A stretch of DNA of 64,000 bases. Origin: Acidobacteriota bacterium. Its GTDB lineage: Bacteria; Acidobacteriota; JAAYUB01. The DNA lies in assembly GCA_016935015.1 (NCBI GenBank), contig JAFGRT010000219.1:1-64000 (forward strand). Direction: 5' to 3'. Below the pieces are notes generated by a model that searched no databases, was not told where the DNA came from, and was given only the letters and a program-made list of their open reading frames with translations. The translations under genes were made by a program, and so were the position numbers. Below are positions 21,163 through 36,266 of the stretch, piece after piece (position 1 is the first letter of the stretch; every line of letters starts with the position of its first letter).

Positions 21163-24100
21163 TCACCCTGTCGACGGCGGCTGGAATGTACCGTCGACGA
21201 TCCGGATGATCCGGGCGGGTGGAGAAAGATCCCCGAACAGTTCAAGGATATGGGGGTGACACGTAAAGAACAGGACCTGGTTGTGTATGGATAACCGGGC
21301 GATGGCGGCGGCTGTCGCCTGCGCCCGCGGAGGATCGAAATTGACCAGGATGTCGTCCATGATCACGGGCAACGGCTCGTTGTGCCGGCCGTGGTTGGCG
21401 ATATACCCGAAGCGGATCGCCAAATAGAGCTGTTCCCGCGTGCCGCGGCTCAGCTGGTGGGGTTCTTTCCAGGCGCCGGTCCGGCTGATGACGTGGATTT
21501 GTTGCCGGGACTCACCGATGGGGATTTTGACGGCCGGGTAGCGGCCGCCGGTAATTTCCCCGAACAGGGCGGATGCCTGCTGGATGACCGCCGGCTGGTG
21601 TTTGCGCTCGAATTCCTGGCGGGCCTGGTCGATGAGAGTGTCCGCCACCCTGATCACCGCCCATTGGCGGGCCTGTTCGTTCAGTTCCGCCAGGATCGCC
21701 TCCTCTTCACTACGCAATTCCGCCACGGTGCCGGCGTCACTCAACCGGCGAATGATCTCTCCCAGGCGAACCTTTTCCTCGCGTTGTCGTTCCAACAGCT
21801 CTTGCAGCTCCCTTTCCTCCTGCTGCAGGTCAAGGATGCCAGTCGCCAGCCGGTCCGGGTCCGTGTTGCCAAAAAGTTCGCGGATTTCGCTCTCCTGTTC
21901 CAGGCCGGACAGGGCCTTCAGCTTTTGCAGGAGCATTTCGCGACGGCGGGCGCTCTCCCGGGCGGTGGCCTCTTCGGCCAGGCGGCGACGGAATTCCTCG
22001 ACGGACCCACAGCCGAGAGTGGACAAGAGTTCCTGCAGCTGCTGATTGAGGGCGGCATGGCTCTGATCCAGCCGTCGGTGGCGGGTCGTTTCCAGCTCTT
22101 TCTGCTTGTCCAGGCGATCACGATCTTCACGTTCTTGTTCAGCCTTCGCCAAGCGTTGCAACAGCACTTCTATTTCCGCCGGCAGGCGGTCCGAATCGAC
22201 ATCCGGCTGGCCCAGGGTGCTGAATACAGCAACGGCCTTATCCTCAAATACCTTCAGTTCCTGACGGATTCGTTGATCCTGCTGGATCAAATTGCTTCTG
22301 GTATCGACGGCCTGACGATATTCAAGGATGCGCTCCAACGCCTCGGTGGCGGTGACCGGATCCAGGTCGGAATCCAGTCCCTGTCCGGCAAGCCAGTTCC
22401 GCCAGTCTGCCTGCAGCTTCTTCAAATCCGCCCCCACGGCGTCGGACCGGCGCTGCATTTCTTCGCGGCGCGTTTGCCATTCCGTCAGTTTCTGCTCGGT
22501 CCGTTTCCGCTCATTCTCCAGAACAGACCGTTTTTCGAGAAGATCTAACTGGTCGTCGAAGCGCTGCAAAACTTCGTTCATGGCCGGCACAAGGTCAATG
22601 GACGGGGCCAGGGCGGCCAGTTCGCCGAGACCGGCGGTGGCCGCTTTTCCCCGAAACTGGTCCATTCGTCGCTGCAGTTCCTGAAGTTGGGCCTGCAGGC
22701 GCTGCCAGTCGTTCATCTTTAACCGGACTGTTTCCGCCCGGGAGATGATCTCCAGTGCCATTTCAGGCGTGATCTCGGCCGGCAGGTGATTGTGCCGGGT
22801 CCAGTCGTCCCAGCGGGCGGTCGCCTGTTCTTCGCACGCCTGGTAGCGGGCCAGAGCGGCTTCGCCCTCGGCCATGACGGTTTGCAATTCCTGTCGCCGG
22901 CTCTCCTCCCGTTTCATCTCGGCCTGGAGGCGCCGGCGGTCCACGGACTGGGCGCGAGCCGTCTCCAGCTCTTCCTCCAGTTCGTCCAGTTGCGCCGGAT
23001 CCGGCTCCGCATCGGGCAGATCCAGGTCTTCCACCAGCGCGCCGATGTCACTTTCCATGGCCGCCAAATGGGCCTGTGCTGCGGCCAGCTCCGTTTGCAG
23101 CGCCGCATGCCGTTCTTCCATCTCCATTGAGGACGGATCAACAGTGGGCAGAAAACGGCGACCGGTAAACAACAGCAGGGAAACGACGAGCAACCCGCCA
23201 CCCATCAGGCCACCGGCCATGGGTAGGCCCAGCCCCAGCAGCACGCTGGCGACGGCCGGTGCGGCCACCAAGAGGATCACCGCCAGCCGGGTGAGAAAAC
23301 GGCGGCTGCGCCGGATACCGCCGGCGGGGGATGCGGCGTGCATGTGCTGCAGATCAGCCGCCCGCTGATCCAAATGAAGGCACCGCTCCCGGCTTTGACG
23401 AGCTTCGTACAGCTGTCGCCGCAGTCGGCGCAGCGTGGATTGGCGGGATTGCAGGCTATTTTCGTCGGGCAGGGAATCGTATCGTTGAAGCTCTTCCCCG
23501 AGCCGGTGCACCGCCGTCTCTTTCTCCCTGATTTCGGCTGCCGTGGCTCCAAGTTTCGATTCCCCCTGGAGGCAGGATTGGCGAGCCTGTTCGAGCTCTT
23601 GCTTCAGACTCACGACCCGGCGGCGGGCGGCGGTGCTGGTATCGAAATTCCGCAGGTCCTCTTCTGTCCAGGCGGGTTGGATGTTCCGGAGCAGCTGCCG
23701 AAACTCCTGCTCCGCGTGGCGGTAACGTTCCTCCACCCGCGGCAGTTCTTCCACAGTGTCCGTGATTTTAGGCCGCTCGCGCTGCAACCACTGGCGGATC
23801 TCCGGATCCGGAGGCGGGTCGGTCGCTGGAAACTGGTCCAGCTGCTGCCGGAGGCTCCGGATCTCCTCTTCCAGCTCCCGGACGCTGGTCTCGTTATGCT
23901 CGAGGAGGTTGGCGGCCGCTGCCTGCTCTGTCCGCAGGCGGTTCAGCTGGACCTCGAAATCCCGGATCCTTTGCCGGGTGAACAGGCCCAGGTCGATCTG
24001 CGCCAGGCGCTCGCCCGGCCATTCGCGGCCCAGCCGTGCCCGGACGCGTTCAGCTTGCTGCGCCAGCTCGGCTGCCTCCACTTCCAGGGCAACGCGGCGT

Positions 24101-25098
24101 CGATGTTTTTCCTGGTAGCTCTGCAGACCGTTGCGCAGTTCGATCACCGCCACCCGCTGGTTCAATAGGGGCTCCTCCGGCCGGATCTGGCGGATCTGAT
24201 CCTCGAAGCGGCGGATTGCGTCATCGGCATCTTGCCGCTCCGCCGCCAGAGACTCCAGCCGGGTAAGCAGCCCATCCATCTGGTCCTTGTGCGGCAGACA
24301 CACGGGTGTTTCGCCGTCTGGCACCGGCTCACCGAACGACTCCAGGACCAACCATTCCTGCCAGGTCTCCCAGGCCGATTGAATTCGTTTGGAGCGGGCA
24401 AGGAGCGTCGACAGCTCATTCCGGCGCCCGTGCCCGGCAGTGATTTCCTTCGCCAGGATCTGCCGAGCCTCCACCGTCTCTTCAAAGCGATCCATCTCGC
24501 GTTTGGCCTCCGCAAGACGGCGGTGAACGTCCTCGAACTGACGAGCCAGATCGTTGATCAGTGGTTTCTGACCCCGGTTTTTGAAAAGTTCATCGAGACG
24601 TTTGCTCAAGGCGGTGCGGGCCCGGGGCAGGGCCTTGACGCTGGTGCCCAGGGTCAAACCATACAGGGCGGTGGTCAGTTCGTCGCTGCGGATGCCGTCC
24701 ATGGACTGCAATTCGTCCAGACTGAACGCGAAAAGCTGATGGAAAGCCTCGGCGGTTGCACCCCTTAGCAGGCGTTGCAGGGCACTCTCACCGACGTCCC
24801 GGCCGTCGGCGTCCCGGAAGCGGGCGGTTTTTTCGCCGTCCTCCCGCCCTAGTGTGAATGGTTCGCCGGCGGCGGTGAGAAGTTCCAATTGGCCGGCGCG
24901 GTGGGTCCCACTGAGGGACGGCAGATAATCGGCGTCGCGCGGCCGGGCAAAACCGAAGAATAGCTGGCGCAGAAAAGCCAGCAGGGTGGATTTGCCGGCC
25001 TCGTTGTCGCCCAGGAACAGGACCAGGTCGCTCAGCTCCGGCAGGACGGCCTCGTGAAACAACCCAAAGTCATGGATGATGCCGCTTCGGATCTTCAT
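21163..25098 (-). CDS. yhaN: Rad50/SbcC-like ATPase of the YhaN type with mid-protein membrane helices
   Basis: The 1311-residue protein has Walker A GDNEAGKST (31-39) at the N-terminus and a Walker B region PVIMDDILVNFDP near residue 1240, flanking long coiled coils (about 180-580 and 670-1130). A hydrophobic stretch at about 600-650 (LAVILLVAAPAVASVLLG and LMGGGLLVVSLLLF) sits where Rad50 would have its zinc hook; YhaN proteins typically have such membrane helices. No CxxC hook is seen there. It probably works with YhaO in DNA end processing near the membrane. The start overlaps the yhaO stop by four bases. Its gene converges on the S9 peptidase gene with 17 bases between. Confidence 0.9.
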   Translation of the reverse strand: MKIRSGIIHDFGLFHEAVLPELSDLVLFLGDNEAGKSTLLAFLRQLFFGFARPRDADYLPSLSGTHRAGQLELLTAAGEPFTLGREDGEKTARFRDADGRDVGESALQRLLRGATAEAFHQLFAFSLDELQSMDGIRSDELTTALYGLTLGTSVKALPRARTALSKRLDELFKNRGQKPLINDLARQFEDVHRRLAEAKREMDRFEETVEARQILAKEITAGHGRRNELSTLLARSKRIQSAWETWQEWLVLESFGEPVPDGETPVCLPHKDQMDGLLTRLESLAAERQDADDAIRRFEDQIRQIRPEEPLLNQRVAVIELRNGLQSYQEKHRRRVALEVEAAELAQQAERVRARLGREWPGERLAQIDLGLFTRQRIRDFEVQLNRLRTEQAAAANLLEHNETSVRELEEEIRSLRQQLDQFPATDPPPDPEIRQWLQRERPKITDTVEELPRVEERYRHAEQEFRQLLRNIQPAWTEEDLRNFDTSTAARRRVVSLKQELEQARQSCLQGESKLGATAAEIREKETAVHRLGEELQRYDSLPDENSLQSRQSTLRRLRRQLYEARQSRERCLHLDQRAADLQHMHAASPAGGIRRSRRFLTRLAVILLVAAPAVASVLLGLGLPMAGGLMGGGLLVVSLLLFTGRRFLPTVDPSSMEMEERHAALQTELAAAQAHLAAMESDIGALVEDLDLPDAEPDPAQLDELEEELETARAQSVDRRRLQAEMKREESRRQELQTVMAEGEAALARYQACEEQATARWDDWTRHNHLPAEITPEMALEIISRAETVRLKMNDWQRLQAQLQELQRRMDQFRGKAATAGLGELAALAPSIDLVPAMNEVLQRFDDQLDLLEKRSVLENERKRTEQKLTEWQTRREEMQRRSDAVGADLKKLQADWRNWLAGQGLDSDLDPVTATEALERILEYRQAVDTRSNLIQQDQRIRQELKVFEDKAVAVFSTLGQPDVDSDRLPAEIEVLLQRLAKAEQEREDRDRLDKQKELETTRHRRLDQSHAALNQQLQELLSTLGCGSVEEFRRRLAEEATARESARRREMLLQKLKALSGLEQESEIRELFGNTDPDRLATGILDLQQEERELQELLERQREEKVRLGEIIRRLSDAGTVAELRSEEEAILAELNEQARQWAVIRVADTLIDQARQEFERKHQPAVIQQASALFGEITGGRYPAVKIPIGESRQQIHVISRTGAWKEPHQLSRGTREQLYLAIRFGYIANHGRHNEPLPVIMDDILVNFDPPRAQATAAAIARLSIHNQVLFFTCHPHILELFGDLSPPARIIRIVDGTFQPPSTG

Positions 25099-26351
25099 GA
25101 GGGTTCCTCCAGCAGGTCATGGCAGAGGTAGGCGGCTTCACGCAGGACGTTCTCCACGACCTCGTCGGCGAGAGGATGCAGATACCGGCCGATACGGGCA
25201 TGGCCATACAATTCCGCCAGGTTCTCCCGCACGAGGTCCTGGTTCTCCGCCCGGCGCCACTCCTCGGCCAGGTGCAAAGCCAGGGCGAGCAGATCGTCGC
25301 CCTCCGCCCGGCGGGTGAGATCCACCAGGGGGCGGGTATCGGCCACCAGTTTTTCCACCCAGATGAAGGGTTGTCGGGTGGCAAATGCCTGATGAAGGGT
25401 ATCCATGAGTTCGACCGTAAAATCCGGTCGGCGCAGGGTATAGTGCAGGGCCGTGCGGCCTTCCAGCCGGACCCGAACGATCACGGATCGATCGCCGCTC
25501 GCCGGCAGGAGCTGGTCGAGGTGTTCCTCGAGGCGCTGGCGCAGCACCACTTCGTCGTCCGTTTCTTCCAATGGGACCGCCAGGTCCAGCCAGCGGACGG
25601 TGTCTGTCGCCACGAATTCCAGTACCATGTGGTCGGGGGCGTGGGCGCGGACCACGACGCAGCCGCGGGATCCCGTCTCGCGGATGTTCCGTCCCTGGGG
25701 CGTGCCCGGATAGACGACGGCCGGCCGTCGATGCAGAACCTGGTGCTGGTGCACATGCCCCAGGGCCATATAGTCGAGACCGGTGGCCAGAAGGTCTTCC
25801 AGTTTGCAGGGCGCGTAATTGTCATGCCCCGGCTGGTCGCCGACGTTGGCGTGGAGGAGTCCGATGCGCGGCACGTCCACACGCCCTTCGGCCCGGTAAC
25901 GGCCGGCTAGGTTTTCCGTGACGTTGCGGGTGGGATAGCTGATGCCCCGGATTTCGGCGATCATTTCACCGTCCCGCAGAACCGGTTGGATTTCCAGTTC
26001 CGGTCCAAACAGGGTGGCGGAAGCGGGGAAATCCAGTGAGGACGCCCAGCTGTTAAGGGGATCATGGTTGCCGACGGCGACGAAGGTGCGGATGCCGGCC
26101 TTTTCCAGACGGAGCAGGCTGTCCCGGAAGAAAAACTGGGCGCGGAGGCTGCGGTCCTCACCGTCGAACACGTCGCCGGCGATGAGCAGAAAGTCGGCCT
26201 GCCGCTCGATACATAGATTGACGATATTCCCGAACGCATCAAAGGTGGCCCGGCGCAGCTGTTCGGCGATGGTGGGCGCCACCTGGCCCAGACCCTGAAA
26301 CGGGCTGTCCAGGTGCAGGTCGGCGGTATGCACAAAGGTGACGGGTTTCAT
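25095..26351 (-). CDS. yhaO: Mre11/SbcD-like DNA exonuclease (YhaO type)
   Basis: The 418-residue metallophosphoesterase carries the five Mre11 motifs: HTADLHLD, AGDVFDGED, VAVGNHDPL, LLHANVG and ALGHVHQHQ, which bind the two metal ions. A cap-like C-terminal part follows. It should be the nuclease partner of the YhaN ATPase encoded directly downstream, with overlapping ATGA. Its own promoter lies just upstream. Confidence 0.92.
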   Translation of the reverse strand: MKPVTFVHTADLHLDSPFQGLGQVAPTIAEQLRRATFDAFGNIVNLCIERQADFLLIAGDVFDGEDRSLRAQFFFRDSLLRLEKAGIRTFVAVGNHDPLNSWASSLDFPASATLFGPELEIQPVLRDGEMIAEIRGISYPTRNVTENLAGRYRAEGRVDVPRIGLLHANVGDQPGHDNYAPCKLEDLLATGLDYMALGHVHQHQVLHRRPAVVYPGTPQGRNIRETGSRGCVVVRAHAPDHMVLEFVATDTVRWLDLAVPLEETDDEVVLRQRLEEHLDQLLPASGDRSVIVRVRLEGRTALHYTLRRPDFTVELMDTLHQAFATRQPFIWVEKLVADTRPLVDLTRRAEGDDLLALALHLAEEWRRAENQDLVRENLAELYGHARIGRYLHPLADEVVENVLREAAYLCHDLLEEPS

Positions 26352-26391
26352 GGCGCCTCCGGCCCTTTTTCTGAAGCGTGGCTACCGCGCC

Positions 26392-26420
26392 ATTATAGCA
26401 GCCTTGTGGCCGCCGGACAA
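26392..26420 (-). promoter_or_regulatory. Promoter of yhaO-yhaN
   Basis: On the minus strand TTGTCC (26415-26420) and TATAAT (26392-26397) are 17 bases apart, and TGC before the -10 box makes it an extended -10. It lies 40 bases before the yhaO ATG. Confidence 0.7.
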
Positions 26421-26563
26421 TCTGCGGTTCACTGCCATTCAGTTCGCCGACAGGCAAATATGCCGACGGCCCGGTGATATACTGTGGATTCATCCTGGTG
26501 GAATTGTTCTTTCCATGACGATCTCGGAATCTTGCTTGACGATGAGGGTCGGATGTTATATAG

Positions 26564-26587
26564 TATAATTTCTATAAAATCTATAGA
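26564..26587 (+). promoter_or_regulatory. Promoter -10 box and palindromic operator of the Rrf2 regulator gene
   Basis: A perfect TATAAT (26564-26569) is followed directly by the 17-bp inverted repeat TCTATA-AAATC-TATAGA (26571-26587). The operator covers the predicted start point, a repressor arrangement. The same palindrome recurs after the gene. The -35 region is weak (TTGACG at 26536-26541 is 22 bases away). Confidence 0.65.
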
Positions 26588-26603
26588 CTTTTGGGTGTTT
26601 GAG

Positions 26604-27050
26604 ATGCTGTCCCGCAAAGCCAAGTACGGATTGCTCGCCATGCTGGCCCTGGCCCGGCGCTACGGCCAGGGACCGGTTCTGATCGCCGATCTGGTGACCG
26701 AGGAGGAGCTGCCACGCAAGTTCCTGGAGTCCATCCTGCTGGAACTCAAGAAACAGGGGCTGCTGCACAGCCGGCGCGGCCGGCAGGGCGGGTACCTGCT
26801 CAGCCGCGCCCCGCACCTCATCTTCGTCGGCCAGATCATCCGGGTGCTGGACGGTCCCCTCGCCCCCGTCTCCTGCGTCAGCCAGACGGCCTACCGGCCC
26901 TGTGACGAGTGTCGGGACGAGCGGCGCTGTGGCATCCGCATGGTCATGCAGGACGTGCGGGATGCCATGGCCGCCATTCTGGACGGGAGATCCCTGCAGG
27001 ACGTTGTCGCGATGGTGGCGGCCCGGGAAAGGACAGATCCGGGCAGCTAA
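26604..27050 (+). CDS. Rrf2-family transcriptional regulator with four conserved-looking cysteines
   Basis: The 148-residue protein begins MLSRKAKYGLLAMLALA, with the Rrf2 winged-helix (LPRKFLESILLELKKQGLL, RRGRQGGYLL). The ligand loop has C91-x8-C100-x2-C103-x5-C109, which could hold an Fe-S cluster or sense redox, as in IscR, NsrR or RsrR; the spacing differs from IscR. The open frame starts at 26484, but that part overlaps the promoter and operator, so ATG 26604 is preferred; the upstream GTTTGAG is a weak ribosome site. The twin palindromes on either side suggest autoregulation and control of the pst operon downstream. Confidence 0.88.
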   Translation: MLSRKAKYGLLAMLALARRYGQGPVLIADLVTEEELPRKFLESILLELKKQGLLHSRRGRQGGYLLSRAPHLIFVGQIIRVLDGPLAPVSCVSQTAYRPCDECRDERRCGIRMVMQDVRDAMAAILDGRSLQDVVAMVAARERTDPGS

Positions 27051-27067
27051 AATTTTTTTCCTTAATC

Positions 27068-27084
27068 TCTATAAAGTCTATAGG
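27068..27084 (+). promoter_or_regulatory. Second Rrf2-type operator, before pstSCAB
   Basis: TCTATA-AAGTC-TATAGG matches the first operator in 15 of 17 positions and keeps the 6-5-6 inverted repeat with one mismatch. It lies 17 bases after the regulator stop and about 93 bases before the pstS start. Confidence 0.65.
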
Positions 27085-27176
27085 AAATAAGGAGTAAGTT
27101 TCCCAGTACCTGCACAAGCGGAACGATGGCGGCCGGTGCAGTGACGACAGATGGGCAGACATCGGGGAGGCGTACC

Positions 27177-28160
27177 GTGAAAACAATCTCTATGCCATGG
27201 TGGGGGATCAGCCTAGCGGTGAGTCTGTTGCTAAGCGGTTGCGGTGGACCGGAGCCGGCCGGATCGGCGGCGAGGGATTCCCGGCGGATGGTGATTTCGG
27301 GCGCCTGGGCCCTGTATCCCCTGGTGGTGCGGTGGGCCGAGGAATATCAGCGGCTTCACCCCGCTGTGGCGGTGGACGTATCGGCTGGCGGGGCCGGTAA
27401 GGGGATGACGGACGCCCTGGCGGGCGCAGTGGATCTGGGCATGATTTCCCGTGAGATCCGACCCGAGGAACTGGCCCGGGGCGTGTGGTGGGTGTCCGTC
27501 GCCAGGGACGCCGTGGTGGTGACCATCAACGCCGCTCATCCCCGGCGGGCGGCGTTGCAGGCGCGCGGTGTGCGGCGGGGGGAACTGGTCCGGATCTGGA
27601 TCACCGGTGAATGGCGCAGCTGGAACCCGTTGATGCCGGGATCATCGAACCTGCCCATCCGGCTCTATACCCGCTCCGACGCCTGCGGGGCGGCCCAGAC
27701 CTGGGCGGCGTACCTGGGAGGCCAGCAGGAGGACCTGGCCGGGGTAGGCGTATACGGTGATCCCGGTCTGGCCGAGGCGGTGCGGGCGGACGAGCTGGGC
27801 ATGGGGTACAACAATATCAATTTTGTCTACGACCGGCACTCGGGGCGGCTGCTGCCGGGCCTGGCGCTGCTGCCGCTGGATCAGGACGAGAACGGCTCCA
27901 TCACGGCGGACGAGGACGTGTACGACACCCTGGCCTCGCTGACGGCGGCCATCGGCGCGGGGAGTTACCCATCGCCGCCGGCCCGCGACTTGCACCTGGT
28001 TTCCGCTGGACCGCCGCGGCGGCCGGTGGTTCGGGCATTTCTGTGCTGGATACTAACTGCCGGCCAGACACTGATCACCGAGTCGGGCTATATCAGCGTG
28101 GGTGAGGAAAAAATCCGCGTCGAGCTGGCCAAACTCGAGGAGATTCCGGCTGAACAGTAA
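27177..28160 (+). CDS. pstS: Phosphate ABC transporter substrate-binding lipoprotein (PstS-like)
   Basis: The 327-residue protein has a lipoprotein signal with lipobox LLLSGC, so it is anchored to the periplasmic face of a membrane. The binding domain shows SGAWALYPLVVRWAEEY, SAGGAGKGMTDALAG and DLGMISREI, the PstS-like phosphate site pattern. The start is GTG at 27177, after GGGGAGG; an ATG at 27126 in the same frame would give a longer, less convincing signal. pstC follows after 39 bases. A divergent PstS family member with another anion specificity is possible, but the rest of the operon is clearly Pst. Confidence 0.88.
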   Translation: MKTISMPWWGISLAVSLLLSGCGGPEPAGSAARDSRRMVISGAWALYPLVVRWAEEYQRLHPAVAVDVSAGGAGKGMTDALAGAVDLGMISREIRPEELARGVWWVSVARDAVVVTINAAHPRRAALQARGVRRGELVRIWITGEWRSWNPLMPGSSNLPIRLYTRSDACGAAQTWAAYLGGQQEDLAGVGVYGDPGLAEAVRADELGMGYNNINFVYDRHSGRLLPGLALLPLDQDENGSITADEDVYDTLASLTAAIGAGSYPSPPARDLHLVSAGPPRRPVVRAFLCWILTAGQTLITESGYISVGEEKIRVELAKLEEIPAEQ

Positions 28161-28199
28161 TCCGGCGGGGATCTCAAGAATACAGGGTGAGCGGTTCAT

Positions 28200-29093
28200 A
28201 TGTTGCGCTGGCGCCAATGGCAAGAGCGAATCGGACGACATCTCCTGCAGGGGATCACCCTGGGCTGCGTTCTGCTGGCCGGGCTGATGATCCTGGGCTT
28301 GTTGCTGAAATCGTGGCCCCTGCTGCAGGAGCAGAATCTGTGGTCCATGTTGGTCTCCCGGGATTGGCGTCCTCACCGCGGTGAGTTCGGCTATTTCCCT
28401 TTCCTGGCCGGCACTCTCTGGGTGACCGGCGGGGCCATGCTGCTGGCCGTGCCGCTGGCCCTGCTGACAGCCACTTATCTGTCCGAATATGCCTCCCACC
28501 GGGTCTGTACCCTTTTCAAACCGCTGATCGACTTGCTGGCGGGCATTCCTTCGGTGGTGTATGGTGTTTGGGGGGTGCTGACCATCGTGCCGCTGGTGAA
28601 GAACGAGGTGGCGCCGTGGTTCGGCCGATTCACGTCGGGTTATTGTATCCTCTCCGCCAGCCTGGTCCTGGCGGTCATGACCCTGCCCGTCATCATTCAC
28701 GTTTCGCTGGAAGTCATGCAGGCCGTGCCCCGGGAATTACGTGAATCCGCCCTGTCCCTGGGGGCGACGCGCTGGCAGACGGTCAAGAAGGTGGTTCTGC
28801 GCAAGGCTCTACCTGGTCTGCTGGCAGCCAATGTCCTCGGCTTCGCCAGGGCCTTCGGCGAGACCATGGCCGTCATCATGGTGGCCGGCAATGTGGCCCG
28901 GGTGCCCGGCTCCATCTTTGATCCGGCCTATCCCTTGCCGGCTCTCATCGCCAACAATTACGGCGAAATGATGTCCGTCCCCCGCTACGATGCGGCCCTC
29001 ATGCTGGCCGCGCTGCTCCTGCTGGGGGTGGTTCTGGGTTTTAGTGTGCTGTCGCGGCTGGTGCTGCAGCGTTTGCAACGGAGGTGGAGATGA
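28200..29093 (+). CDS. pstC: Phosphate ABC transporter permease PstC
   Basis: The 297-residue inner-membrane permease has six hydrophobic helices and the PstC core IDLLAGIPSVVYGVWG, followed by the cytoplasmic coupling loop PRELRESALSLGATRWQT (the EAA-type motif). It forms the channel with PstA. Its stop overlaps the pstA start by four bases (ATGA). Confidence 0.95.
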   Translation: MLRWRQWQERIGRHLLQGITLGCVLLAGLMILGLLLKSWPLLQEQNLWSMLVSRDWRPHRGEFGYFPFLAGTLWVTGGAMLLAVPLALLTATYLSEYASHRVCTLFKPLIDLLAGIPSVVYGVWGVLTIVPLVKNEVAPWFGRFTSGYCILSASLVLAVMTLPVIIHVSLEVMQAVPRELRESALSLGATRWQTVKKVVLRKALPGLLAANVLGFARAFGETMAVIMVAGNVARVPGSIFDPAYPLPALIANNYGEMMSVPRYDAALMLAALLLLGVVLGFSVLSRLVLQRLQRRWR

Positions 29094-29947
29094 GGTGGTC
29101 CTGGCGGAAGGTGGAAGAGACATTCTTCCGGTGCCTGATGATGGCGGCGGTGGTGCTGGTGATGCTCATCCTGTTGTGGATTCTGTTGACGATCCTGGTC
29201 CGGGGGGTGCCGGCGCTGGACTGGGAGATGGTCTCCCGTACCCCCCGCGGCGGTTTCTACCTGGGGAAAAGCGGGGGTATTCTCAACGCCATCCTGGGCT
29301 CCCTTTTCCTGACCCTGGGGGCGACCCTGGCCGCTTTCGTTGCCGGTTTGCCGGTGGCACTTTACCTCACCTGTTTTCGGGGTGATTCATCGAGAACCGC
29401 GGCCTTCATCCGGACGGTGCTCGACGTGCTGTGGGGCATCCCGTCCATCGTCTATGGCGCCTTTGGTTTTGTGCTGATGATCTGGCTCGGCCTGCGGGCC
29501 AGCCTGCTGGGCGGGATGCTGGCCGTGGCGTTACTTATCCTGCCCATCATGATTCGCGGCATGGACGAGGTGATCCGGCTGGTGCCGCGGGAGTTGTACG
29601 ATTCGGCCTATGCCCTCGGAGCGACAAAAATGGAAACGGCATTCCGGGTGGTCATTCGGCAAGCGGCGCCGGGCATCCTGAGCACGGTACTCATCGCGTT
29701 GGGCCGCGGGATGGGCGACGCGGCCTCGGTGCTGTTCACCGCCGGTTACACGGATGCCCTCCCCTCCTCCCTGCTGGAACCGGTGGCCACGTTGCCGCTG
29801 GCCATCTTTTTCCAGCTGGGTACGCCGTTTCCTGAAGTGCAGGAACGGGCCTATGCCAGTGCGTTACTGCTGACGATCCTGATCCTGGTTATCAGCGGTG
29901 TGGCCCGCTGGCTGATTCGGCGGTACGCACGCCAGGTCGTCCGCTGA
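29090..29947 (+). CDS. pstA: Phosphate ABC transporter permease PstA
   Basis: The 285-residue permease partner of PstC has VLDVLWGIPSIVYGAFGF and the EAA-type loop PRELYDSAYALGATKMET. ATG 29090 is chosen because GGAGG ends five bases upstream and it overlaps the pstC stop; a GTG at 29084 is also in frame. pstB begins 13 bases after the stop. Confidence 0.95.
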   Translation: MRWSWRKVEETFFRCLMMAAVVLVMLILLWILLTILVRGVPALDWEMVSRTPRGGFYLGKSGGILNAILGSLFLTLGATLAAFVAGLPVALYLTCFRGDSSRTAAFIRTVLDVLWGIPSIVYGAFGFVLMIWLGLRASLLGGMLAVALLILPIMIRGMDEVIRLVPRELYDSAYALGATKMETAFRVVIRQAAPGILSTVLIALGRGMGDAASVLFTAGYTDALPSSLLEPVATLPLAIFFQLGTPFPEVQERAYASALLLTILILVISGVARWLIRRYARQVVR

Positions 29948-29960
29948 GCGGAGGTATGGT

Positions 29961-30722
29961 ATGACCGGTGAACATGTGATTCACGCCCGAGACCTGAATG
30001 TGTATTATGGGCAGCTCCATGTGCTCAAAGACATCACAGTGGCCATTCCCCGCAGCAAGATCACAGCCATCATCGGTCCGTCGGGCTGCGGCAAGTCCAC
30101 CCTGTTGCGCTCCTTCAACCGGCTGCTCGAAACCATGGACAACGTCCGTCTTGCCGGTTCGGTGCGGCTGGGGCCGCAAGATGTCTATGCGCCGGGGGTG
30201 GACGTCACTCTGATCCGGAAAAAGATGGGTTTGCTGGCCCAGCGGCCCTTCCCCCTGCCTATGTCCATCTATGAGAATGTGGCCTTCGGCCCCCGCCTGC
30301 ACGGGATCCGGAACCGGCGCGCCCTGGACCGGCTCGTCGAAGACAATCTGCAACTCACCGGTTTGTGGTCCGAAGTACGTGATCGGTTGCACACCCCGGC
30401 CGTGGAGCTTTCCATCGGCCAGCAGCAACGGCTTTGTCTGGCCCGCGGGCTGGCTGTGGAACCGGAGGTCATCCTGGCGGACGAGCCTACGTCAGCGCTG
30501 GATCCACAGTCGAGCCGGCGGATCGAGGAATGCTTCCGGCATCTCAAGGACCGGTATTCCATCGTCATGGTGACGCATATTCTCCGTCAGGCCCGGCGGC
30601 TGGCCGATTATATCCTGTTTCTGTACATGGGGGAACTCGTGGAACACGGTCCGGCGGAACAGATGTTCAACGCGCCCCGCCGGGAATTAACCCGCGAATA
30701 CGTGCAGGGTGTCATCAGCTAG
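29961..30722 (+). CDS. pstB: Phosphate ABC transporter ATP-binding protein PstB
   Basis: The 253-residue ATPase energises uptake through PstCA. Walker A is GPSGCGKST, Walker B is VILADEPTSALDP, and the switch His is in MVTHILRQA. PstB-specific FPLPMSIYENVAFG is present. The ABC signature reads LSIGQQQRL rather than the usual LSGGQ; the Gly to Ile change is unusual because this loop contacts ATP in the dimer. There is no phoU after it. Confidence 0.94.
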   Translation: MTGEHVIHARDLNVYYGQLHVLKDITVAIPRSKITAIIGPSGCGKSTLLRSFNRLLETMDNVRLAGSVRLGPQDVYAPGVDVTLIRKKMGLLAQRPFPLPMSIYENVAFGPRLHGIRNRRALDRLVEDNLQLTGLWSEVRDRLHTPAVELSIGQQQRLCLARGLAVEPEVILADEPTSALDPQSSRRIEECFRHLKDRYSIVMVTHILRQARRLADYILFLYMGELVEHGPAEQMFNAPRRELTREYVQGVIS

Positions 30723-32963: not shown

Positions 32964-33335
32964 TCAGGAGCTGGTGGGAGGGTGGTCCCTGGGGGCGGCT
33001 TCCGGGTCGGATGACGCGGGCTCCGCCATTTCGTCCATTGCAGTCCCCGACCATTTTTCCACACCCTGCCGGTGCGCCGCCCGGCTGATGGCATGGGCGG
33101 CCACGGGAGTGGTCAGAAAAATGAAGAGCATGACCAGGAACGCCTTGACCAGGACGACCCAGCCGGCGAAATGGGCGGCCACCCCTGCCAGCATGAGGCC
33201 CATGCCCAGGGAGGTGGCCTTGGTAGCGGCGTGCATCCGGGTGTAGAAATCGGGAAAACGGAAAATGCCGATGGCGCCAATGAGCATGAACAGCGCTCCC
33301 AGCAGCAGCAGGACTCCGGCAAGCCAAGAAATCAT
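32964..33335 (-). CDS. mrpG: Na+/H+ antiporter subunit MrpG
   Basis: The 123-residue membrane protein has three helices and the MrpG signature GIFRFPDFYTRMHAATKATSLG. It is the last subunit of the Mrp complex, which exports Na+ (or other cations) in exchange for protons across the inner membrane. The start overlaps the mrpF stop (ATGA). The last 30 residues are a polar, Pro/Ala-rich tail. Confidence 0.95.
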   Translation of the reverse strand: MISWLAGVLLLLGALFMLIGAIGIFRFPDFYTRMHAATKATSLGMGLMLAGVAAHFAGWVVLVKAFLVMLFIFLTTPVAAHAISRAAHRQGVEKWSGTAMDEMAEPASSDPEAAPRDHPPTSS

Positions 33336-33607
33336 GATTGCGCCCGCCGCTGGATGTATAAGGCAAAGGATACCGTGGCGAAAAATATTACCAGGGAAAT
33401 GATGACCACTACATCCAGATAGACCGCTTCGCCGGCGAGGACGGAATGAACAAGCACCGCACCCGCCAACAGCATGCTGATCATGTCGAGGGCCATGACC
33501 CGGTCAGGCAGATGGGGGCCCTTGATCAGGCGAATCAGGGCCAGCAGCGCGGCCATGATCAGTATCCCCCAGATGGACAGGAAAAGAAAATCAGCCCCGA
33601 TGTTCAT
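33332..33607 (-). CDS. mrpF: Na+/H+ antiporter subunit MrpF
   Basis: The 91-residue protein has three membrane helices and the MrpF pattern RLIKGPHLPDRVMALDMIS. It overlaps both mrpE and mrpG by four bases, so the three are translationally coupled. The length is normal for the family. Confidence 0.94.
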   Translation of the reverse strand: MNIGADFLFLSIWGILIMAALLALIRLIKGPHLPDRVMALDMISMLLAGAVLVHSVLAGEAVYLDVVVIISLVIFFATVSFALYIQRRAQS

Positions 33608-33939
33608 CGCAGCACCTCCAGCACACGCCGCTCCAGGTCATCCTTGATTTTCCGGCGCAGTTCCGCAACGTCTTTGATGTACATGGCATGGACGAACAGC
33701 GTGCGCCGATCGGCCGATATCTCTACGCTCAGTGAGCCGGGAGTCATGGAAATCAGGTTGGCCACGGCCAGGATTTCGACGTCGGAACGCGCGTCCAGCG
33801 GCACGGCAACAAATCCGGGACGCATGTGATGACGGGGCGTCAGTATGTCATAGGCTACCCGTAAATTCGAGACCAGCATCTCTCGCATATAGAACAGGAA
33901 AAGCACGAGCAGGCGATAGATTCGGATCAGGATGCTCAT
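33604..33939 (-). CDS. mrpE: Na+/H+ antiporter subunit MrpE
   Basis: The 111-residue protein belongs to the MrpE family: two N-terminal hydrophobic stretches around LYRLLVLFLFYMREMLVSN, then ISMTPGSLSVEISADRRTLFVHAM, the conserved core. It is somewhat shorter than the Bacillus form. The start follows GGAAGG after 9 bases. A 58-base gap separates it from mrpD, the largest gap in the operon; the other junctions overlap or leave at most two bases. Confidence 0.92.
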   Translation of the reverse strand: MSILIRIYRLLVLFLFYMREMLVSNLRVAYDILTPRHHMRPGFVAVPLDARSDVEILAVANLISMTPGSLSVEISADRRTLFVHAMYIKDVAELRRKIKDDLERRVLEVLR

Positions 33940-33997
33940 CGTACAATGCCTTCCGGTGTTGACCGGTGCGTCTCCCGAAGAGGCCGCCCGGCCGGGA

Positions 33998-35500
33998 TCA
34001 GGGGACCGGTCCCAATACCGCCCGGATGTAGGCGGTGCGGTCCATCAATTGTTCCGCCGCTTCTTGGGTCATCTGGATGAAAGATTCGGGAAACAGCCCA
34101 AGGCCGATGGTGAGAGCTGTCAGCGCCATCACCGGTGCCAGCAAAAGCCAGGGAACGCCGGCCGGAGTATTTTTCTCGCCCGACGGATATTCGGTGGGCG
34201 GCTCCTTCCAGAATGCCTCCGTCCAGATCTTGGTCATGGAATACAGGGTCAGAATCCCCACCGCCAGGGCCACCGCCACCAGGGCATACTCGCCGACGGC
34301 CAGCCCGGCCCGGATGACCATCAGCTTGGCCAAAAAGCCGGAGAGGGGCGGTACGCCTGCCTGGGAAAGGGCGGAAACCAGAAACAGAAAGGCCAGCAGC
34401 GGGTAGGCGCGATACAGTCCGCCCAGGTATTTCAGGTTGAACGTGCCTCGTAGATGGTTTACGATGCCGCCGGCCAGAAACAGGTTGGTTTTGACGATCA
34501 TGTTGTGTACGACATAGAAAATGGCGCCGGCGATTCCCGCGACGGTAAAGAAGCCGAGTCCCAGCGTCATATAGCCGATCTGGCTGATGATGTGGAAGGA
34601 AAGGATACGCCGGATGTCGAAGTGGGCGGCGGCGCCGAGCACGCCCACCACCATGGTCGCCGCCGAAACACCGAGAATCAGGCCGTGGGTCAGGGCCGTA
34701 TTCTGTATAAATACCAGGGTAAACATGCGGATCAGGGCGTACACCCCCACTTTGGTGAGAAGGGCGGCAAAAATGGCGGTGACGGCCGTGGGCGGCGTGT
34801 GATAGGAGGCCGGCAACCAGGAAAAAAGGGGGAATACGGCCGCTTTGATCCCGAAGGCCAGAAAGAGCAGCATGGCCGAGGTGAGCATCAGGCCGGAGTC
34901 GCTCTGGGAGGCCGTTTTCTGGGCCAGATCGGCCATATTCAGCGTCCCGGTCTTGCCGTAGAGGAGACCGATCCCCGTCAGGAAAAAGGATGAAGCGATG
35001 AAGTTGAGTGTCACATACTTGAATGCACCGGCCAGCTGATTCTTTTCGCCGCCAAGGGCCAGGAGCACGAAGGAGGCCATGAGCATCACTTCGAACCAGA
35101 CGTACAGGTTGAAGAGATCGCCGGTGAGAAAGGCGCCGCAGACACCCATAAGCAGGGCATGAAACAGTGGATGGAAACCGAAGGACACCCGGGCCTGGTC
35201 CACGTTGCCCAGGGCATACACCACCACCGACAGTCCCAGCAAAGACGAAGCCAGTACCATGATGGCGCTCAGCATGTCCGCCACCAGAACGATCCCGAAC
35301 GGGGCCGGCCAGGAGCCGATCTCCACGGCGATGATCCCTTCATGCCTCACCGTGGCGAGCAGGGTAACGGCCGCCGCCACCAGCCCGGCACTGCCGGCCA
35401 GGCTGAGGCCCCGTTGCAGGGTGCGATGACGGGCCATCGCCAGGGAGAGCGCGGCTGTGAGCAACGGGATGATGACGGGCAGAACGGGCAACAAGCTCAT
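33998..35500 (-). CDS. mrpD: Na+/H+ antiporter subunit MrpD
   Basis: The 500-residue polytopic protein is homologous to the NuoL/M/N proton-pumping subunits. It shows GDLFNLYVWFEVMLMASFVL with the conserved Glu of the core helix and WLPASYHTPPTAVTAIFAAL with the proton-path region, and HNMIVKTNLFLAGG. It overlaps mrpC by four bases. It is one of the two ion-translocating core subunits with MrpA. Confidence 0.96.
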   Translation of the reverse strand: MSLLPVLPVIIPLLTAALSLAMARHRTLQRGLSLAGSAGLVAAAVTLLATVRHEGIIAVEIGSWPAPFGIVLVADMLSAIMVLASSLLGLSVVVYALGNVDQARVSFGFHPLFHALLMGVCGAFLTGDLFNLYVWFEVMLMASFVLLALGGEKNQLAGAFKYVTLNFIASSFFLTGIGLLYGKTGTLNMADLAQKTASQSDSGLMLTSAMLLFLAFGIKAAVFPLFSWLPASYHTPPTAVTAIFAALLTKVGVYALIRMFTLVFIQNTALTHGLILGVSAATMVVGVLGAAAHFDIRRILSFHIISQIGYMTLGLGFFTVAGIAGAIFYVVHNMIVKTNLFLAGGIVNHLRGTFNLKYLGGLYRAYPLLAFLFLVSALSQAGVPPLSGFLAKLMVIRAGLAVGEYALVAVALAVGILTLYSMTKIWTEAFWKEPPTEYPSGEKNTPAGVPWLLLAPVMALTALTIGLGLFPESFIQMTQEAAEQLMDRTAYIRAVLGPVP

Positions 35501-35844
35501 GGGGCGCTCTCCTGCAATTCATCGACGTCATCCGTGCCGGTGACAGCGAAGGTGCGATAGGCCAACACCAGGGCGAAGGCCAAAATGCCGAAGCCGATGA
35601 CGATGGCCGTCAAAATCAGGGCCTGGGCCAGGGGGTCGGGGTAAGGGGGCGACAACCGCTCCGAGCCCGGTGGAATCAAGGGACTTCGGGAACGGACCAG
35701 GCCGGCGGCGGTGAAAATCAGCAGATTCACAGCATGCCCCACCAGCAGGAGGCCCAGAATCACCTTGGACATGCTCCGTCGCAGGAGAAGATAGATGCCT
35801 CCGGCAAATAAAATGCCGGTGATAAAGGCCAAAACGGTTTCCAT
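35497..35844 (-). CDS. mrpC: Na+/H+ antiporter subunit MrpC
   Basis: The 115-residue, three-helix protein resembles NuoK: GIYLLLRRSMSKVILGLLLVGHAVNLLIF, split by a conserved Gly-x-x-Leu stretch, and DPLAQALILTAIVIGFGILAF. ATG 35844 lies two bases after the mrpB stop with a GAAGAG ribosome site inside mrpB; the frame runs back to 35916 within mrpB and is not used. Confidence 0.95.
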   Translation of the reverse strand: METVLAFITGILFAGGIYLLLRRSMSKVILGLLLVGHAVNLLIFTAAGLVRSRSPLIPPGSERLSPPYPDPLAQALILTAIVIGFGILAFALVLAYRTFAVTGTDDVDELQESAP

Positions 35845-35846
35845 GA

Positions 35847-36266
35847 TCAACTCTCTTCCATGACATGAAAAGCGATTTCGGTGGTGATCCCCCATACCAC
35901 CAGGAACACACCGCAATCAAACAACAAAGGGGTACCCAGTTTGAGGCCGCCCATGACCGGCAAGGTAAAGTCGGGCCACCAGTGTCCGGTCATGAAGGCC
36001 GCGCCGGTGAGTGTCCCCCACAACCCGCTACTCAACGCCACCAGCAGGCCGCCGGTCATTAGCCAGCGGGGTGGAACACACATCCGCCGGCGGGCCCGGT
36101 CAACGTCGTGAGCTACAGCCAGCAACAAGAACGCCGTCGCCGCGAGCAAGCCACCGATGAATCCCCCGCCCGGCAGGTTATGACCGCGCAGCAGCGTCAG
36201 CAGGGAAAAGATCAGCTGAATCGGAACCACGATTTTCGCCGCGGCCTGCAGGAGTAGGGAATTCAT
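35847..36266 (-). CDS. mrpB: Na+/H+ antiporter subunit MrpB
   Basis: The 139-residue protein has four membrane helices and the MrpB motif [21 protein letters not shown], with [16 protein letters not shown] near the end. It overlaps the mrpA stop by four bases. Its length is normal. Confidence 0.95.

Follow-up and report, generated by a model that had tools for sequence, protein, structure and literature searches.

CymR of Bacillus and Staphylococcus, an Rrf2-family repressor concerned with cysteine metabolism, acts globally and is tied to sulfur supply, and IscR and NsrR are Rrf2 proteins of the Fe–S type, with a cysteine-rich loop in which three conserved cysteines hold the cluster. Among ABC importers, PstSCAB is accompanied by PhoU and a Pho regulator, with PstS binding phosphate through its GS(T)T, GSGxG and SGT loops, and Sbp or CysP acts with CysTWA in sulfate and thiosulfate transport. 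The Acidobacteriota locus described here resembles each of these systems in part. It shares with PstSCAB–PhoU the S–C–A–B gene order, matches to the PstC and PstA models and the PstS fold, but its binding protein, here called PstS*, has altered binding loops and scores below the PstS cut-offs, PhoU is missing from the operon, and an Rrf2 gene stands in front of PstS*CAB instead of a Pho regulator. With Sbp/CysP–CysTWA it has in common, as seen in relatives, a position beside the same Rrf2 gene, operator and OprP-like porin, although its permeases and binding protein are Pst-type and have no sequence membership in the sulfate–thiosulfate group. We propose, with a probability of roughly 0.55 and on the basis of sequence comparison, that a CymR-like, sulfur-responsive Rrf2 repressor controls an importer of Pst architecture for sulfate, thiosulfate or a similar anion. 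The features of the locus, numbered along the window (the whole 64-kb stretch of DNA that was analysed), are as follows.

26536–26564, plus strand: sigma-70-like promoter of the Rrf2 gene, TTGACG-17-TATAGT, 10/12 in a consensus scan, a match alone and no proof of a promoter
26571–26587, no strand assigned: putative operator 1, TCTATAAAATCTATAGA, exact TCTATA-N5-TATAGA, conserved before Rrf2 homologues
26604–27050, plus strand: Rrf2-family regulator, 148 aa, PF02082 118.3 bits (cut-off 30)
27060–27092, no strand assigned: extended palindrome CCTTA-N23-TAAGG, symmetry centre 27076, shared with operator 2
27068–27084, no strand assigned: putative operator 2, TCTATAAAGTCTATAGG, lying after the Rrf2 gene and ahead of the transporter operon
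27177–28160, plus strand: PstS*, lipoprotein substrate-binding protein (PBP_like_2), PF12849 96.8 bits, GTG start, lipobox LLSGC
28200–29093, plus strand: PstC-type permease, TIGR02138 268.1 bits (cut-off 196.45)
29084–29947, plus strand: PstA-type permease, TIGR00974 210.1 bits (cut-off 193.45)
29961–30722, plus strand: PstB-type ATPase, TIGR00972 328.1 bits (cut-off 343.2)

On the minus strand just upstream of the Rrf2 locus (21163–26351) lie genes for a large coiled-coil ATPase and for a metallophosphoesterase (PF00149), together SbcC/SbcD-like, and the minus-strand genes at 32964–36266 read as a multisubunit Na+/H+ antiporter cluster of the Mnh/Mrp type. No known RNA or riboswitch was found in 26200–27400 at an E value of 0.5.

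The initial annotation had reported the two palindromes, an exact TCTATA-N5-TATAGA and a 15/17 copy of it, and their coordinates and matches were both confirmed. Operator 2 begins 18 bp downstream of the Rrf2 stop codon and has one arm mismatch. The further statement that the first palindrome overlaps the predicted start point also held, the promoter from the consensus scan placing the start of Rrf2 transcription at about operator 1. At up to two mismatches, three matches were observed in the window, against 0.14 in shuffles; the third overlaps operator 2 and is no separate site. A search of the 4.75-Mb genome for further copies of the 17-bp motif, which the annotation had suggested, returned operators 1 and 2 only at up to one mismatch. 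Because the genome is large and about two such sites are expected by chance (a rough estimate from base composition), rarity is no argument for operators; the evidence is their position around one regulator gene and their conservation. A wider regulon in the source genome was considered and rejected, as the remaining near-matches all have two mismatches and number 19, against 82 for a backwards-pattern control. One good palindrome among these, at C121:31413, is flanked by the converging ends of two genes. The same contig, C121, carries a small ferritin-like gene followed by an apparent encapsulin shell gene (L012:172–1364), with a palindrome near-match downstream of the pair, between converging gene ends.

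Conservation was assessed in a sample of 52 Rrf2 loci drawn from relatives and other phyla, using a strict pattern, TCTAT-N7-ATAGA, which is a shortened form of the window sites and was scored at up to one mismatch. It occurs within 110 bp before the Rrf2 start at 11 of the 52 loci (dinucleotide shuffles: mean 0.20, maximum 2, 200 runs) and within 160 bp after the Rrf2 stop at 9 of the 52 (mean 0.29, maximum 2); the sites before the gene mostly lie 19 to 53 bp from the start codon. The initial annotation had held that a palindrome frequent in relatives and unlinked to the gene there would speak against it; the palindrome is linked, far above the shuffles. When a relaxed pattern, TCKAYW-N5-WRTMGA, is also admitted at up to one mismatch, sites precede the Rrf2 gene at 13/17 Pst*-linked loci, 7/11 sulfate-linked loci and 3/24 loci in other contexts, giving 20/28 transporter-linked loci versus 3/24 others, counts that are descriptive only because the relaxed pattern was picked after seeing the data. 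The second site, after the gene, is present at 11/28 transporter-linked versus 2/24 other loci and is weak or absent at 10 of 17 Pst* loci; ten transporter-linked loci (six Pst*-linked and four sulfate-linked) have sites on both sides. The exact operator was not found in 182 kb around other Pst/PhoU loci and SulP, compared with 12 occurrences in Pst* loci, nor was it found around Sat genes. Taken with gene order, the conserved sites strongly support the autoregulation and the control of the adjacent ABC operon that the initial annotation had predicted, and on these sequence grounds the link between regulator, operator and transporter is highly probable.

The window regulator, whose start codon was chosen from the conserved N terminus of relatives, exceeds the cut-off of the superfamily model TIGR00738 (110.8 versus 73.3 bits). 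Its next-best NCBIfam match is the CymR equivalog NF047409, at 89.8 bits versus a cut-off of 195. Like CymR, it would be a repressor tied to sulfur supply; unlike CymR, which is global, it appears to have a local regulon of two sites, as far as seen, and it carries four cysteines in the Fe–S cluster loop. These residues, C91, C100, C103 and C109, lie where Fe–S members of the family hold their cluster, so that the protein shares with IscR and NsrR both the fold family and a cysteine-rich loop near residues 91–109; however, the cysteine spacing differs, the IscR model TIGR02010 gives 71.1 versus 207.55 bits, and the NsrR and RirA cut-offs are likewise unreached. The cysteines are mostly kept in the group to which the window regulator belongs, with three of them retained in the main Pst*-linked clade, and are missing in L118, L121, L122 and others, of which L118 and L122 are sulfate-linked. 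From its sequence, the regulator is a possible Fe–S sensor. In the Rrf2 tree it falls in a 16-member group (support 87) to which 9 of the 11 sulfate-linked regulators also belong; its tree partner is the Pst*-linked L048, at 62 percent identity, with L086 and L084 next nearest, and its closest named relatives include Acidobacteriota. A cysteine-free branch of Rrf2 proteins (L113, L116 and L117, with L102 and L119) lies beside DusB-like and M24 peptidase-like genes with no transporter, and no operator was found at these five loci. The Bacteroidota homologues L053, L054 and L057 adjoin a gene of the TauE/SafE-type sulfite exporter family (tested in L053), another link to sulfur.

Two types of transporter alternate beside the regulator. 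Rrf2–[porin]–PstS*CAB is found at 18 loci, the window included, and Rrf2–[porin]–Sbp–CysT–CysW–CysA, in varying orders, at 11; an OprP-like porin, identified as Porin_O_P, lies in between at 11 and 6 of these, respectively. No locus has both transporters. The transporter labels rest on tblastn because the simple gene-calling script errs in the GC-rich stretches of relatives. At the sulfate-linked locus L084, Sbp and CysT score above curated models and CysA above the sulfate subfamily model. The Rrf2 tree can be explained only if one transporter gave way to the other at least three times.

PstS* has the PstS fold: its AlphaFold2 model (mean pLDDT 83.9) finds phosphate-binding proteins as its best solved matches. 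Its scores nevertheless lie well under both PstS cut-offs (TIGR02136, 84.3 versus 206.6 bits; TIGR00975, 50.7 versus 205), whereas the same genome has a PhoU-linked PstS that scores 295.8 bits against 206.6. The first permease of the window gives 59.1 versus 246.1 bits with the CysT model TIGR02139. The 16 Rrf2-linked PstS* proteins group together in one clade, which excludes 19 PstS taken from other Pst operons of the phylum, mostly in genomes that also carry PstS*. Across the 16 aligned members, GAWA stands in place of GS(T/D)T, GAGKG in place of GSGxG, and CGA (SGA in L099) in place of SGT, and the Ser/Thr hydroxyl contacts that usually bind phosphate are lost. There is no PhoU gene within 27177–30722; PhoU adjoins another Pst set, on contig C231. 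PstS* also occurs in 11 further genomes (ten read at locus level) with no close Rrf2 homologue beside it, and the transporter is therefore not dependent on the regulator everywhere. At five loci from one genus (L236, L239, L242, L243 and L244) the gene after PstS* is not PstC, being outer-membrane-like in L236, and tblastn found no Pst permease in these stretches.

The presence or absence of phosphate, sulfur and molybdenum genes was scored in 22 to 31 selected genomes, 17 of them Pst*-linked. All 17 have a further PstC above cut-off together with PhoU, and none has CysT above cut-off. ATP sulfurylase (Sat) is encoded in 14 of the 17 and, by reading of one locus, adjoins an APS-kinase-like gene, a pair that suggests PAPS formation for sulfation. 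Assimilatory sulfate reduction was rejected as the common use, with CysH/CysD in only 2/17, as was dissimilatory sulfate reduction, with DsrA in 0/17. SulP is found in one of the 17, the source genome itself (contig C115, L280:8298–10427), where it scores 377 bits, just short of the 380 set for curated sulfate permeases; it may transport sulfate, bicarbonate or a dicarboxylate. The source genome, which is 97 percent complete, has no obvious means of using sulfate because neither Sat nor CysH/CysD was detected in it, and there the importer could carry thiosulfate or something else. With that genome excepted, the pattern agrees with a requirement for sulfate where the search, which ran outside the DASS, CysZ, PiT and TupB types, met no other known permease.

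Cargoes other than sulfur anions have to be weighed against this pattern. Import of another oxyanion, such as molybdate or tungstate, would agree with the matches to the molybdopterin family PF00384 in all 22 genomes tested, a count that includes NuoG-like proteins, with the DmsA-like enzyme encoded by the source genome, and with the absence of a CysT/ModB-like permease at 1e-20 from 15 of the 17 Pst*-linked genomes, TupB-type permeases being outside that search. It is nonetheless unlikely: one Pst*-linked genome (G311) already encodes WtpABC for tungstate, next to a MoeA-like gene, and the equivalent at the sister loci is Sbp–CysTWA, not ModABC. Somewhat less likely still is an additional phosphate importer of high affinity, governed by an Rrf2 sensor of Fe–S, redox or sulfur state. 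The PstC and PstA scores, the PstS structures at the head of the fold search and the naming of O/P-family porins as phosphate-selective all speak for phosphate; the low PstS* scores next to the PhoU-linked PstS, the loss of the phosphate-contact residues, the sulfate transporters that follow the same regulator and operator in relatives, and the ordinary Pst–PhoU system elsewhere in the genome speak against it. The initial annotation had read the locus as Rrf2 control of phosphate uptake, and of this reading the control of the adjacent ABC operon stands, on conserved sites and gene order, while the phosphate part is opposed by the divergent PstS*, the separate Pst–PhoU system and the sulfate transporters at sister loci.

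The palindromes might also be real operators that serve mainly in autoregulation, or that bind another DNA-binding protein, with the transporter expressed by read-through from the Rrf2 gene. Only 126 bp separate the Rrf2 stop from the PstS* start, no terminator was found on that strand between the two genes, and many relatives are missing the second site. Even so, this arrangement is very unlikely, given that the second site is concentrated at transporter-linked loci, and that the first site too is mostly limited to Rrf2 genes linked to a transporter.

The preferred reading, a sulfur-responsive repressor controlling a sulfur-anion importer, builds on what is observed: both sites and their conservation, a gene order in which one transporter stands in for the other, a PstS* that has diverged, and an ordinary Pst–PhoU system encoded separately. 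We infer from these that the protein binds, that it represses and does not activate, which signal it answers to and what the importer carries. A local, CymR-like Rrf2 dimer would bind the 17-bp palindrome where its own transcription starts and the second copy before the next operon; sulfur shortage, or a sulfur-derived signal, would release it and raise expression of both the Rrf2 gene and the Pst-architecture ABC importer, whose cargo would be sulfate, thiosulfate or a similar sulfur oxyanion rather than phosphate. A sulfur oxyanion is the likely substrate because PstS*CAB occupies the place of Sbp–CysTWA beside the same regulator in relatives. The preferred reading has observations against it as well: the source genome is without Sat or CysH/CysD yet has SulP; 15 of the 17 Pst*-linked genomes are without CysH/CysD and all 17 without DsrA; PstS*, PstC and PstA are, by sequence, homologous to phosphate rather than sulfate transporters; and, for the regulatory part, PstS* stands with no close Rrf2 homologue beside it in the 11 further genomes and the second site is weak or absent at 10 of 17 Pst* loci. 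More tentatively, and at slightly less than even odds, PstS*CAB importers may make up a new family, built like Pst but moving sulfur oxyanions (sulfate or thiosulfate), which has exchanged places with CysPTWA more than once, in one direction or the other, beneath a single Rrf2 regulator and operator. In that case the name ‘phosphate transporter’ would be wrong for many annotated systems of the phylum.

A literature search of incomplete coverage found no report that ties pst to an Rrf2 regulator and none of a sulfate importer of Pst type; in a Desulfovibrio phosphate paper, an Rrf2 gene appears in a fitness table only (PMC5193443). If the proposal is true, a sulfur anion is carried by a family of transporters annotated as specific for phosphate, and what is annotated as phosphate scavenging in these bacteria would have to be corrected. 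An Rrf2 group for which the operator is defined and either of two transporters can be the target would, further, make signal and substrate directly testable.
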